A stretch of DNA of 64,000 bases from Rhodoferax lacus (GTDB lineage: Bacteria; Pseudomonadota; Gammaproteobacteria; Burkholderiales; Burkholderiaceae_C), in the NCBI RefSeq assembly GCF_003415675.1, contig NZ_QFZK01000005.1, positions 124,001-188,000 on the forward strand, in the 5' to 3' direction. The stretch's first letter is position 1; the number at the start of each line of letters is the position of its first letter. The notes under the pieces are model-generated. The model was not told where the DNA came from. It saw only the letters and a program-made list of their open reading frames with translations, and did no database searches. Positions 5,264 through 47,077 of this stretch are shown here, piece by piece. Position numbers and translations under genes: made by a program.

Positions 5264-5322
5264 AAACCCGGAGGTGGGCACGCATTTTGGCGATCCAAGG
5301 CCACATTCCTGCATGCGGGTGC

Positions 5323-5392
5323 GCAGGAGGGGCAAGGGCGGGCTCCTCATGGCGGAGTACCGCAAATCGTCGCCCGCCCTTGCCCCTCCTGC
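5323..5392 (+). repeat. hairpin A1, core in forward orientation
   Basis: Perfect 21-bp arms at 5323-5343 and 5372-5392 enclose a 28-nt loop. Within the loop, CTCAT and AAATCG flank an apical stem GCGG/CCGC with tetraloop AGTA (5352-5363). No U-tract follows, so this is not a canonical terminator. Confidence 0.85.
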
Positions 5393-5489
5393 TCACTGGG
5401 GCGCGGCTGTGCTTGACGAAAAAAAAAGACCGAATACCGACCATCCAACCGGCGCGCAATGTCTTGAATCGCTGGTTCACACGGGGGTT

Positions 5490-5566
5490 GCGCGGCAAGG
5501 GGGGTGTGCCGGGCGCCGATTTGCGGTACCCCGCCATGAGGTGACCGGCATACCCCCTTACCGCGC
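5490..5566 (-). repeat. hairpin A2, core in reverse orientation
   Basis: Arms of 22-23 nt at 5490-5512 and 5545-5566 pair with a one-base bulge and two G-T type wobbles. Read on the minus strand the loop carries CTCAT, an apical stem GCGG/CCGC with tetraloop GGTA, and AAATCG. The core is complementary to that of A1 over 24 nt with one mismatch. Confidence 0.8.
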
Positions 5567-5672
5567 AGCGAGTGAAAAAAGCTTCACTCCCGCGGGCTTG
5601 TGCAGCGAAAGCATTTGCCTACTGGTTCGTACTTTTGTGCCGCGTAAACGGTTGATAATCAAATTACAAAAA

Positions 5673-15075: not shown

Positions 15076-15106
15076 CCCTTTGAAAAGGTGTCCCCGCAAA
15101 TGCTGG

Positions 15107-15118: not shown

Positions 15119-16534
15119 ATGAGCGAAGCCACCCCATCCACTGTCCCCACCCTGGCCCCGGCCAACAAAATCCCCAAAGTCGGGTTTGCGTCCCTGGGCT
15201 GCCCCAAGGCCCTGACCGATTCCGAGCTGATCCTCACCCAGCTCAGCGCCGAGGGTTACCAGACCTCCAAGACTTTCCAGGGCGCTGACATCGTCATCGT
15301 CAACACCTGCGGCTTTATTGACGAGGCCGTACAGGAAAGCCTGGACACCATCGGTGAAGCATTGGCCGAGAACGGCCGCGTCATCGTTACCGGCTGCCTG
15401 GGCGCCAAGACCAGCAAGGACGGTGGCAACATGGTGCGCGAGCTTCACCCCCGCGTGCTGGCCGTGACCGGCCCGCATGCCACGCAGGAAGTGATGGACG
15501 CTATTCATTTGCACCTGCCCAAGCCGCACGATCCGTTTACCGACCTGGTGCCCAACACCTTTGGCGTGGCCGGCATCAAGCTCACGCCGCGCCACTACGC
15601 CTACCTGAAGATCAGCGAGGGCTGCAACCACCGTTGCACCTTCTGCATCATCCCTAGCATGCGCGGCGACCTGGTGAGCCGCCCCATTGGCGATGTGCTG
15701 ACCGAAGCGCGCGCCCTGTTTGAAGGCGGCGTGAAGGAACTGCTGGTGATCAGCCAGGACACCTCGGCCTATGGTGTGGATGTGAAGTACCGCACGGGCT
15801 TCTGGGACGGCAAACCGGTCAAGACCCGTATGCTGGATTTGGTGCAGTCGCTGGGCGAACTGGCCGCCCCCTATGGCGCCTGGGTACGCCTGCACTACGT
15901 GTACCCCTACCCCAGCGTGGACGCCATCCTGCCGCTGATGGCCAGCGGCCTGGTGCTGCCCTACCTGGACGTGCCTTTGCAGCACAGCCATCCCGATGTG
16001 CTGCGCCGCATGAAGCGCCCGGCCAGCGGCGAGAAGAACCTGGAGCGCATCCAGCAGTGGCGCGAAATCTGTCCGCAGCTGGTGGTGCGCAGCACCTTTA
16101 TTGCCGGCTTCCCTGGTGAGACGGAAGAGGAGTTCCAGCACCTGCTGGACTTTCTGGAAGAGGCGCAAATCGACCGCGCCGGTTGCTTTGCCTACAGCCC
16201 TGTGGACGGTGCTGCGGCCAACGAGTTGCCCGGCATGTTGCCACCCGAGGTGCGTGAAGAACGCCGCGCCCGCTTCATGGCGGTGGCCGAGCGTGTCTCC
16301 GCCGCCCGCCTGCGCCGCCACATTGGCGCCACCATGCAGGTGCTGGTGGATTCAGCCCCCGGCATGGGCAAAAAGGGCGGCACTGGCCGCAGCTATGCCG
16401 ACGCGCCGGAGATCGACGGCATCGTGCGCCTGCTGCCACCTGAAAAAATCAGCAAGACGCTGAAGGTGGGTGAATTCACCAAGGCGCGCATTGTGGGCAC
16501 CGAGGGGCACGACCTGGTGGCGCAGCCTTTCTAG
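15119..16534 (+). CDS. rimO: ribosomal protein S12 methylthiotransferase RimO
   Basis: A 471-residue radical-SAM methylthiotransferase that adds a methylthio group to an aspartate of ribosomal protein S12. The N-terminal UPF0004 domain has its cluster cysteines in [14 protein letters not shown] and TGCLGAK. The radical-SAM cluster is [17 protein letters not shown], with Cys169, 173 and 176. A C-terminal TRAM domain follows. The end SLGCPKA plus the GDLVSRP segment fits RimO rather than MiaB. I started at ATG 15119; upstream codons are unlike the family. It is convergent with the RNase II-like gene, with repeat element B in between. Confidence 0.95.
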
Positions 16535-16600
16535 GCTTCGGTGGTCTGTTGTGGCCACGTTCTGACTGTTTCGTACGAACATTCGCCTGCGTGTGGGTGC

Positions 16601-16668
16601 GCAGGGGAGCCGGGGCGAGCTCCTCATGGTGGAGTACCACAAATCGTCGCCCGCCCCGGCTCCCCTGC
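16601..16668 (+). repeat. hairpin B1, core in forward orientation
   Basis: Arms 16601-16620 and 16649-16668 pair over 20 bp with one A-C mismatch around a 28-nt loop. The loop matches A1 except that the apical stem is GTGG/CCAC instead of GCGG/CCGC: both strands changed, keeping pairing. The tetraloop AGTA and the CTCAT/AAATCG internal loop are unchanged. Confidence 0.85.
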
Positions 16669-16766
16669 TTACAGGTGCGTTGTTGCGTTCATAAGGAAAT
16701 GCCAATACCGTTTCACTGCTCCTGGTCTTGTGCACTGGTATTCAAGCGTTGCGTTTGCAGGGGGTC

Positions 16767-16840
16767 GCGCGGCAAGGGGATACGCCGGGCGACGATTTGT
16801 GCTCGCACCATGAGGAGTCCGGCGTATCCCCTTGCCGCGC
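16767..16840 (-). repeat. hairpin B2, core in reverse orientation
   Basis: Perfect 22-bp arms at 16767-16788 and 16819-16840. On the minus strand the loop has CTCAT, apical stem GTG/CAC with a CGAG tetraloop, and AAATCG. The outer arm part GCGCGGCAAGGGG is shared with A2, while the inner part differs but remains complementary. Confidence 0.85.
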
Positions 16841-16903
16841 AGCGAGCGAAATAGCCTCACTCTTGCTGCCATGGCGGCCAGAGTCCCGAAGTGACTTCAA
16901 ACC

Positions 16904-18388
16904 CTAAGCCTCAACAGCAAAATCAATAAACCCGCGCTCCACATTGGTAGACACCAATCGCACCCGCAACTTGGCGCCAATGGCCGGGCCCGTGCTGACC
17001 AGCAGCTTGCCTTCCACCGGCGGATTAAGCAGCCGCACCCACACGCCGTCCGGCGAATTACCGGTGACGATGGCGTTGAACACCTCGCCTGTGCGTGACT
17101 CCAGCACCAGCGCCGCATCCGACTTGCGCATGCGCCGCTCCACCTTGCGGGCTGCATCTTCCTGGCGCGTGCAGTGCTGCGCCAGCGTGGCCAGTTCCTC
17201 CAGCGAGTACGGCGGCGTCTGGCCTGCCAGGGCGGCCTTGAGCATGCGCGAGGTGATCAGGTCGGGGTAGCGCCGATTCGGCGCCGTGGAGTGCGTGTAG
17301 TCGCGAACGGCCAGGCCGAAGTGGCCGATACCTGTTTCGCCCGGCGCCTCCACCACGTACTCGCCCGAACCCATGAGCTTGATGATGACCAGCGACAGGT
17401 CGGCAAAGCGCAGCGGGTCGGCTTGGTGGCGCTTGGCCAGAAAGGCTTCCAGGGCCCGGGAGTCCGGGGTGTTGGGCAAGTCCTCGCCGTATTCCTTGGC
17501 CACCGCCACAATGCGCAGCCAGCGATCGGGAGAGCGCACCACGCGGCGCAGGGAGCCCGCACCGGATTGACCCAGGTAGCGCGCGTTACAGCCGTTGGCG
17601 GCAATCATGAATTCCTCAATCAGCTGGCGGGCGCGGTTTTGCTCCTGCTGGGCGATGCCAACCACCTGCTCGCCTTCGAACAGGGCGCGCGGCGCAAACG
17701 TTTCGAATTCCAGCGAGCCTTTGGCGTGGCGCAGAACGCGCATCTTCTGCGCCAGGGCGTCCTGCTGGCGCAGCTGCAAGTCCATGCCCGGCACGCTCTG
17801 CGCGGCGACCGGCAGGGGGCCCGAGCCGTCGATCCACAGCGACACCGCGTCATAGGCCAGCTTGGCCTGGTTGTGCACCGTAGCGCGGTACAGCGTGGCC
17901 TCCTGCAACTGGCCGTCGCTGGCAAACAGCATGTCGGTCACCACGGCCAGGCGGTCCACACCTGCGCCCAGAGAAGTCAGGTTGGTGGAGAGCCTCTCGG
18001 GCAGCATGGGGAAGATGCAGGCCGAGGTGTAGATGGTGGCGGTGTTGGTGCGCGCATGGTCGTCCAGGGCGCTGCCTTTTTTGACCAGGGCATCGACATC
18101 GGCAATGGCCACCAGCAGACGCGTGCGGCCGCCTTTCAGCGCTTCGCACACGGTGAGCTGGTCCAGGTCCAGCGAGTCGTCGTTGTCGATGGAGCACCAC
18201 AGCAGGCTGCGCAGGTCGCGCACGGCAGGGGTGCTGTCGCTTGCCGCGCCCGCAATTGAGGCCAACTCCTGCAGCGCCTGGGCCGAGAAGGCGGTGAGCA
18301 ACTGGCGCTCGCGCATGGAGGCAATGGCAATGCGAACCAGGTCGCTGCGGTGGTGTGGTGGGCGGGCTCTGAAGGTGGAGGCAGACAT
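16904..18388 (-). CDS. RNB-domain ribonuclease, RNase II-like, without N-terminal cold-shock domains
   Basis: A 494-residue protein dominated by an RNB exoribonuclease domain. The acidic active-site motif reads SIDNDDSLDLDQ near residue 66; the second half has HFGLAVRDYTHSTAPNRRYPDL, which includes the conserved arginine region of RNase II/R. Compared with RnR in this window (IDGEDARDFDDA) the last motif Asp is Gln. There is no clear cold-shock pair at the N-terminus, and only a short S1-like C-terminus (GVWVRLLNPPVEGKLL). It should degrade RNA 3' to 5', but substrate choice may differ. A -10-like AATAAT ends five bases before the ATG. Confidence 0.85.
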   Translation of the reverse strand: MSASTFRARPPHHRSDLVRIAIASMRERQLLTAFSAQALQELASIAGAASDSTPAVRDLRSLLWCSIDNDDSLDLDQLTVCEALKGGRTRLLVAIADVDALVKKGSALDDHARTNTATIYTSACIFPMLPERLSTNLTSLGAGVDRLAVVTDMLFASDGQLQEATLYRATVHNQAKLAYDAVSLWIDGSGPLPVAAQSVPGMDLQLRQQDALAQKMRVLRHAKGSLEFETFAPRALFEGEQVVGIAQQEQNRARQLIEEFMIAANGCNARYLGQSGAGSLRRVVRSPDRWLRIVAVAKEYGEDLPNTPDSRALEAFLAKRHQADPLRFADLSLVIIKLMGSGEYVVEAPGETGIGHFGLAVRDYTHSTAPNRRYPDLITSRMLKAALAGQTPPYSLEELATLAQHCTRQEDAARKVERRMRKSDAALVLESRTGEVFNAIVTGNSPDGVWVRLLNPPVEGKLLVSTGPAIGAKLRVRLVSTNVERGFIDFAVEA

Positions 18389-46840: not shown

Positions 46841-46916
46841 GCGGCAGCGGGGCTTGGGCCAATGCCCTCATACCGGAGTACCGCAAATCGGTCATTGGCC
46901 CAAGCCCCGCTACCGC
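46841..46916 (+). repeat. hairpin C1, core in forward orientation
   Basis: Arms 46841-46864 and 46893-46916 pair over 24 bp with a single C-A mismatch. The 28-nt loop has CTCAT, apical stem CGG/CCG with AGTA, and AAATCG. Arm sequence is unlike A1 or B1. Confidence 0.85.
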
Positions 46917-47003
46917 TCCTGCAGGGTTGGTAAGCGATAGATTTCAAAGGCAATCGTCTGGGCATCCGGTGTTTGTAGTTCGTGCACCAAGCCCATCGCA
47001 ACG

Positions 47004-47077
47004 CGGCAGTGGGGGTGAGGCTGACGCCCGATTTGCGGTACCCCGCTATGAGGGCGTCAGCCTCACCCCCACTGCCG
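47004..47077 (-). repeat. hairpin C2, core in reverse orientation
   Basis: Perfect 26-bp arms at 47004-47029 and 47052-47077, the longest in the window. On the minus strand the loop reads TCAT, apical stem GCGG/CCGC with GGTA, then AAATC. Confidence 0.85.

Follow-up and report, generated by a model that had tools for sequence, protein, structure and literature searches.

A REP-like palindromic repeat of Rhodoferax lacus, nearly confined to one family of Burkholderiales and probably spread as single-hairpin units

Two convergent genes of Rhodoferax lacus are separated by a pair of hairpins facing each other, which raises the question of whether this structure is a copied, mobile element or a local feature of the site. 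The window analysed here, i.e., the whole stretch of 64,000 nucleotides, is G000:C61:124001-188000 of a 4.9-Mb genome in 71 contigs. The structure, termed element B, is located in the gap between rimO, encoding the 30S ribosomal protein S12 methylthiotransferase (15122..16534, plus strand; TIGR01125 530 bits, cut-off 357), and the gene of an RNB-domain exoribonuclease of 494 amino acids (16904..18388, minus strand; PF00773 268 bits). The rimO range is the one searched, and the listed open reading frame starts at 15080. The exoribonuclease scored below the cut-offs of the RNase R and RNase II models (269 bits vs 598 for RNase R) and is a short or divergent member.

Element B comprises a facing hairpin pair, a spacer and short conserved flanks, and was delimited at 16579..16862, without strand, from the alignment to its homologue A and from an alignment of 11 copies. 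Hairpin 1 (16598..16671, plus strand) scored 86 bits with the covariance model R1 and folded as DNA at -29 kcal/mol (z -6.5); its core, TCAT-GGTGGAGTACCAC-AAATC, lies at 16624-16645. The spacer (16672..16767) is followed by hairpin 2 (16768..16839, minus strand; R1 78 bits; DNA fold z -9.2), with the core TCAT-GGTGCGAGCAC-AAATC at 16794-16813. A scan for the core letters between complementary arms found six hairpins only in the window, forming three twin-hairpin elements. The range given in the first-pass annotation spans B only. Element A (5303..5589), homologous to B from end to end in the alignment, carries hairpin 1 at 5321..5394 (plus strand; core 5347-5368; R1 95.7 bits; DNA fold z -9.3) and hairpin 2 at 5492..5565 (minus strand; core 5518-5539; R1 77.6 bits). 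Element C (46842-47077) consists of hairpin 1 at 46842..46915 (plus strand; core 46868-46889; R1 76.4 bits; DNA fold z -9.1) and hairpin 2 at 47004..47077 (minus strand; core 47030-47051; R1 85.3 bits; DNA fold z -12.3). Matches to the 16-base core with up to three mismatches numbered five in the window, vs 0.29 expected. Single-stranded DNA folding covered five of the six hairpins, leaving out A hairpin 2, and each of the five beat all 200 of its dinucleotide shuffles (z -6.5 to -12.3).

The homology of A and B over about 285 bp, flanks and spacer included, had been proposed from the letters alone and was upheld: the local alignment score was 187, as opposed to a mean of 19 and a maximum of 33 in 200 letter shuffles, and 221 of 296 columns (75%) were identical in the global alignment. 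Identity was 14/18 in the left flank, 66/78 in hairpin 1, 57/95 in the spacer, 70/87 in hairpin 2 and 14/18 in the right flank, the spacer thus being the least similar segment (60%). The words said to be shared at matching distances were in register for the left flank, AATACCG, GGGGGT and CCGCGCAGCGAG...TCACTC, but TCTTG and CTGGT were out of register. Outside the hairpin cores C resembles the other two little (local scores 62 for A-C and 35 for B-C).

A covariance search provides insight into how far such a structure has been copied. In the own genome, R1 gave 78 rows at E 0.01, corresponding to 57 places, as 21 of the rows were the other strand of the same palindrome; 150 of 3114 first-look candidates were scored. 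The claim that the element had been copied was thereby supported. Eleven own-genome copies of the A/B type aligned over their hairpins, one of them without much of the second hairpin, and their homology ran through the hairpins and much of the spacer. Exact ends had been expected from such an alignment; some of the 11 copies shared about 25 to 100 bp of additional flank, and the ends are therefore not fixed. At C51:69498-70300 (L005, L025) four hairpins were located within 0.8 kb, which is a local cluster or a nested insertion.

In each hairpin the two arms of an outer stem of 21-26 bp enclose CCTCAT, a small apical hairpin and AAATCG, and common apical hairpins in the own genome were GGYGGRGTACCRC and GGTGCGAGCAC. 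The core CCTCAT...AAATCG was strongly conserved, while the letters of the outer stem varied freely, with the pairing kept. Among 31 distinct own-genome hairpins (alignment A1), 22 of 27 stem pairs had changed on both sides; 92.5% of the cells paired, vs 70.3% in shuffles, and 172 cells carried two-sided changes, vs 49.6, with none of 500 shuffles as high in either count. Sliding the partners by 1 to 3 columns gave at most 39 such cells. Most scans required TCAT and AAATC exactly, wholly or nearly so, and the invariance of these letters in them is therefore built in. A freer pattern with AAATCG-type letters, in which TCAT was not demanded, returned 30 loci, 26 of them stem-bearing at the threshold applied, and TCAT stood upstream in all 26. 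The best R1 match in each of 28 other genomes had both words exact at the expected place in 20; the remaining 8 showed a shifted length or variants such as TTAT and AAATT.

The apex differed between genomes. A favoured apex was seen in G064 (ACTGGRGTACCAG in 26 of 28 distinct hairpins), in G080 (GCTGGRGTACCAG in 15 of 23) and in G184 (the same in 10 of 14). The own genome was mixed, with at least 10 types among 51 distinct hairpins, as were G189, G264, G167 and G245, where few copies were read. The stems varied among the copies of one genome. Several spacers of the G064 elements L261-L267 held GGTAGCGCGCTACC-like words, which form a short inverted repeat of their own.

The first-pass annotation had described a discrete element of fixed layout, and this description was not supported. 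Units were found singly or as facing pairs; the insert in leuS, discussed below, carries a single hairpin, and for this reason the unit looks like one hairpin. Among the fetched loci, neighbours less than 500 nt apart were facing in 84 cases, tandem in 3 and back-to-back in none. The core-to-core gap of the facing pairs ranged from 87 to 332 (median 140), and their CCTC tags lay outside, which is the HH arrangement of REP dimers.

The distribution of the repeat was examined at the level of the family, the order and a species collection. In the family, 57 of 299 genomes matched, belonging to 37 of 141 genera, in a search with stricter filters that scored up to 16 candidates per genome. A fuller search of fifteen chosen genomes gave matches in 14 and up to 58 rows (G064), although such row counts may include one palindrome twice; likewise, the 336 matches of one hairpin scan counted overlapping loci more than once. 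An order-wide draw of 300 genomes yielded four matches: the own genome, two other members of its family, and one genome from a different family, G496, in which a single place scored nearly alike on both strands (45.0 and 44.9) and could be an ordinary palindrome. The species collection, of 84,980 species, held the exact 24-base core at 58 loci, under the titles Limnohabitans, Malikia granosa, Hylemonella and Comamonadaceae, or only Burkholderiales or beta proteobacterium. Within the genomes drawn, the repeat is nearly confined to one family of Burkholderiales. Plasmid and phage records gave no match to element B at blastn sensitivity. In G064 (L264, contig C23), two near-identical elements with similar flanks lie 2982 bp apart, which suggests that about 3 kb, the element included, were duplicated in tandem.

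Copies were also located inside genes, with in-frame hairpins in UvrA, leucyl-tRNA synthetase (LeuRS) and HrpA. Of 258 distinct hairpins, 50 lay inside stop-free frames of at least 150 codons on both sides and 208 did not. The apex length was 2 mod 3 in 46 of the 50 and in 7 of the 208 others. Leaving aside five hairpins without a tied gene (L055, L119, L126, L143 and L197), it was 2 mod 3 in 44 of the 45 hairpins in named genes, the exception being the one in HrpA. The usual frame encodes S-S-x...K-S-S-P-G or, inverted, G-D-D-F...E-E-P. The long frames of these five loci were not accepted as carrier genes; L055 (NCBIfam), L143 and L197 (both Pfam) had no family match, and the chelatase match of L119 starts after the hairpin.

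Regularly spaced hairpins on contig C71 and in four other genomes proved to lie inside uvrA, which is of double length (2285 amino acids in the own genome; UvrA models 1907 and 1880 bits). Pairs spaced 1.7-1.9 kb in several genomes had been considered as tandem autonomous elements; this was rejected, as the spacing is that of the linkers of the double-length uvrA. From 30 genomes searched, 28 uvrA loci were used (L237 and L238 were left out), giving 29 rows with the own genome, 28 of them readable and one unreadable at site 1. Every linker read had a length divisible by 3. At site 1 the linker measured 141-360 nt in 15 and 30-84 nt in 13 of the 28 rows, and the close relative G315 (96% identity over 524 residues) had 66 nt vs 354 in the own genome. 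Some long linkers lacked a strong R1 score and some held degraded hairpins. At site 2, G315 was without a hairpin and G304 (97% over 296 residues) had a twin with a different apex. The site 2 linker of G189 (L225) contained a different in-frame palindromic repeat of the GTCATTCC...GGATGAC type, which by eye resembles a CGTC/TGTC REP dimer; the same UvrA linker hosts the twin-hairpin family in other genomes.

In the LeuRS of G081, the alignment to the solved structure 6q89 was broken by a hairpin-coded insert of 28 residues (498-525). Across 23 genomes the corresponding loop was exactly 30 nt in 14, among them G185 of the same genus as G081. The hairpin was present in G081 and G137; judged by eye, G245, G087 and G167 have degraded or variant hairpins (inverted in G167), and inserts of other kinds occurred in G051, G210, G264 and G121. 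The in-frame inserts of G264 (L331), G210 (L330) and G121 (L332), of 87-165 nt, did not resemble the present hairpin, and this loop of the editing domain seems generally tolerant of inserts. HrpA carried one hairpin in G080 and one in G184; the scan found none in the other 15 of 17 genomes, where the linkers vary anyway.

Comparison of orthologous places can reveal whether copies come and go. The one clean intergenic site held about 155 bp with one hairpin in G080 and 3 bases in G184 of the same genus. No target duplication was visible there, in agreement with what had been reported for the copies in the window, and the uvrA and leuS linkers are too diverged to judge. Since relatives without the insert were found at the UvrA and LeuRS sites and at this intergenic site, copies have been gained or lost between relatives, with the direction proven at no single site. 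The same two species shared the element at 9 of 10 comparable sites, and HrpA is a further shared place. This share is biased upwards because most of the matching G184 pieces were fetched for carrying hairpins; several G080 elements without a counterpart in the fetched pieces were left out of it, and none of nine 20-kb pieces of G184 taken from predicted places matched a G080 element locus. With all but one of the 10 comparable sites shared between the two species, recent movement may be rare.

Other evidence points to old sites. The gap between an aldehyde dehydrogenase gene and a DUF779 gene held at least one core in each of 12 loci from several genera (L026, L033, L038, L052, L071, L080, L082, L128, L130, L132, L136 and L203), all of which were found through the hairpin, and this intergenic site is old. 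In the hairpin pointing against the genes, 15 of 27 pairs had changed on both sides among 11 sequences, with none of 500 shuffles as high, although the stem was poorly paired in the L082 row; these hairpins are possibly a regulatory site. At the rimO site itself, R1 gave no hairpin in 29 other loci, where the downstream gene was not found either and synteny was lost. Presence in some relatives and absence in others, as the proposed mobility would predict, was seen at uvrA, leuS and one intergenic place, and other sites are old. The comparison of sister species that had been suggested returned a mixed answer, because some sites are old and others were gained or lost between relatives: one site was empty in G184, and the pattern named as favouring ancient local structure, presence at every orthologous site in distant relatives, was seen in part, at the 9 of 10 shared sites and in the 12 loci of the DUF779 gap.

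The same species pair showed how the copies drift. Nine locus pairs supplied 13 orthologous hairpins; differences were counted at 5 of 167 positions in the apex and at 75 of 676 in the arms, in line with the earlier remark that arms drift faster than cores; the core letters themselves, fixed by the scan, were not counted. Among the arm pairs, 17 had changed on both sides and still paired, 35 had changed on one side, 3 had changed on both and were unpaired, and 283 were unchanged. The 20 double changes compare with about 4 expected by chance (0.111 squared x 338).

REPs have been sorted into GTAG and CGTC super-families, the latter forming facing dimers without a transposase, in the account given in the main text of PMC3733652, which does not mention Acidovorax, Comamon- or Rhodoferax. 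The present repeat is like the CGTC REPs described there in its variant tag, in the AT/AT beside the tag, in dimers with the tags outside and in having no linked transposase (PMC3733652). Of the described tags CGTC, TGTC and CCTC, the last was present in 30 of 31 A1 rows, the remaining row having TCTC, TC being demanded by the scan that chose the rows, and AT and AT were present in all A1 and A2 rows, partly by demand of the scan. The loop was of 4 nt, within the described 4-5 nt, in the commonest apex type of 13 nt, and longer apices exist. Thirteen transposase loci were without close copies. The repeat departs from the described stem of 8-9 bp and CCA tail (PMC3733652): it has 2 + 4 bp with a mismatch between, followed by the outer stem of 21-26 bp, and AAAT was followed by CG in 30 of 31 A1 rows and by CA in one. 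Judged by these text definitions, it was not filed under the CGTC super-family because the stem length and the tail fail.

The likeness extends to the genes that host copies, as PMC3733652 describes intragenic REPs in RNA helicases, tRNA synthetases and the uvrA genes of Thioalkalivibrio and O. terrae, the same kinds of gene in other species. Rickettsia palindromic elements, as described in PMC10969869 and PMC3733652, are also palindromic, sit in frame in genes of known proteins and encode a recognisable peptide, much as the present insertions sit in the UvrA, LeuRS and HrpA frames and are absent from homologues. They differ in belonging to another bacterial group, and here 208 of 258 hairpins lie outside long frames and the stems vary freely. 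By analogy, they are the closest class in behaviour. Miniature inverted-repeat elements (MITEs) such as ERIC and NEMIS, as outlined in the same two sources, are likewise short, non-autonomous and dispersed; here, however, no parent transposon was found, and no target duplication was visible at the single clean site. In the search for an autonomous parent, frames lying within 2.5 kb of hairpins in 151 loci were clustered, and for each of the 12 largest clusters the start of one member was inspected by eye; none was recognised as a transposase. The largest clusters were the orthologous aldehyde dehydrogenase/DUF779 place, an acyl-CoA dehydrogenase-like family and UvrA. We read the repeat as REP-like, resembling the CGTC-type REPs and the Rickettsia palindromic elements and standing outside the CGTC definition.

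Several other explanations of these observations were weighed. The strongest of them, tentative as it is, holds that the repeat is a derived CGTC REP, of the group of Rickettsia RPE-4/RPE-6 and Neisseria dRS3, whose outer stem has grown long. The core can be parsed as CCTC (a tag variant), AT, an apex with a 4-nt loop and AT, and the facing dimers, the lack of a dedicated transposase and the copies inside the genes of UvrA, a tRNA synthetase and an RNA helicase agree with what is reported for REPs, but the reported stem of 8-9 bp and the tail CCA are not seen. We consider it rather unlikely that the repeat is a REPIN moved by a resident REP-associated tyrosine transposase (RAYT). REPINs and BIMEs with RAYTs (PMC3116915, PMC8266576) share with it the paired inverted hairpins dispersed in a genome; the present repeat differs from them in its long stems, in having no GTAG tag and in not closely flanking the transposase gene. 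A1 contained no GTAG-type tag, and the outer stem, modelled at 21 bp, far exceeds the 5-13 bp of GTAG REPs given in PMC3733652. A Y1-type transposase gene was present in 222 of 299 family genomes, including all 17 genomes with at least 5 hairpins vs 205 of 282 others (Fisher p 0.005). Counted by genus the link is weak, as the 17 genomes represent 9 genera and the gene occurs in 116 of 141. The gene is also present in many genomes that lack the repeat. The own gene matched the REP tyrosine transposase model at 62.9 bits, though below the cut-off of 80. One transposase locus per genome was scanned in 13 of the 17 high-copy genomes, namely the own L031 and 12 others (in G051 and G245 one of several gene copies), and no hairpin was found within about 1.5-2 kb on each side of the gene; in G080 one hairpin lay about 4 kb away. 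The REP-type tyrosine transposase of these genomes is only a candidate for the mobilising enzyme.

The remaining two explanations dispense with spread as the main process. A functional RNA or DNA structure, such as a 3'-end stabiliser of mRNA, a terminator or a regulatory hairpin, could have been selected at each site, with the copying incidental. The two-sided changes with the hairpin kept in 11 sequences of the aldehyde dehydrogenase/DUF779 gap speak for such selection, and 27 own-genome loci were sorted as 10 convergent, 8 tandem, 5 divergent, 3 unclear and 1 in an open reading frame, by rough heuristic gene calls of which at least one is wrong, A having been called divergent (the YnfA-family gene there is on the plus strand). 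Copies inside reading frames and in unrelated genes, relatives without the hairpin at other sites, and the Rfam search of the window, which found no family at gathering score except a tRNA, stand against it, and we consider this explanation rather unlikely as well. It is highly improbable that the palindromes are purely mutational, made or perfected by local template switching, with a core shared by chance or gene conversion. Template-switch correction is expected to give stem pairing with little sequence constraint, which fits the stems observed; the long exact core in 58 loci, the 11 copies that are homologous across the hairpins and most of the way through the spacer, and the clean presence or absence at the G080/G184 site and in leuS all stand against it.

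The explanation we favour, and consider probable, is that A, B and C belong to a dispersed REP-like palindromic repeat family that spreads as single-hairpin units, almost only in one family of Burkholderiales. The units would spread as folded single-stranded DNA, with the core read by a factor supplied in trans. Copies landing in frame in flexible protein loops would survive, and copies would then be inherited by descent with the stem kept paired, either by selection for the fold or by template switching during replication that copies one arm onto the other. A more specific reading is that the apical part is recognised by a dedicated factor, with a preferred apex that depends on the genus and a stem nearly free of sequence constraint, and that the in-frame copies are a coding lineage of their own, retained in proteins of DNA repair and tRNA charging and in RNA helicases because they serve, for example, to tune translation. 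Given the many apex types in the own genome, we regard this as quite unlikely.

Three features look new: a long stem that covaries around a conserved, asymmetric core, a coding lineage whose apex length is 2 mod 3, and a distribution almost restricted to a single family of bacteria. A search of open-licence papers found no description of this repeat in Comamonadaceae, which is weak evidence. REP-like repeats are common in bacteria, and both their movement without a linked transposase and their recurrence inside uvrA, tRNA synthetases and helicases of unrelated bacteria are presented as open questions in the main text of PMC3733652. The present family repeats this choice of uvrA, tRNA synthetase and helicase targets in another bacterial family, with clean empty leuS loops, and raises two testable questions: what reads the core, and whether the stems stay paired through selection or through replication errors in which one arm is copied onto the other.
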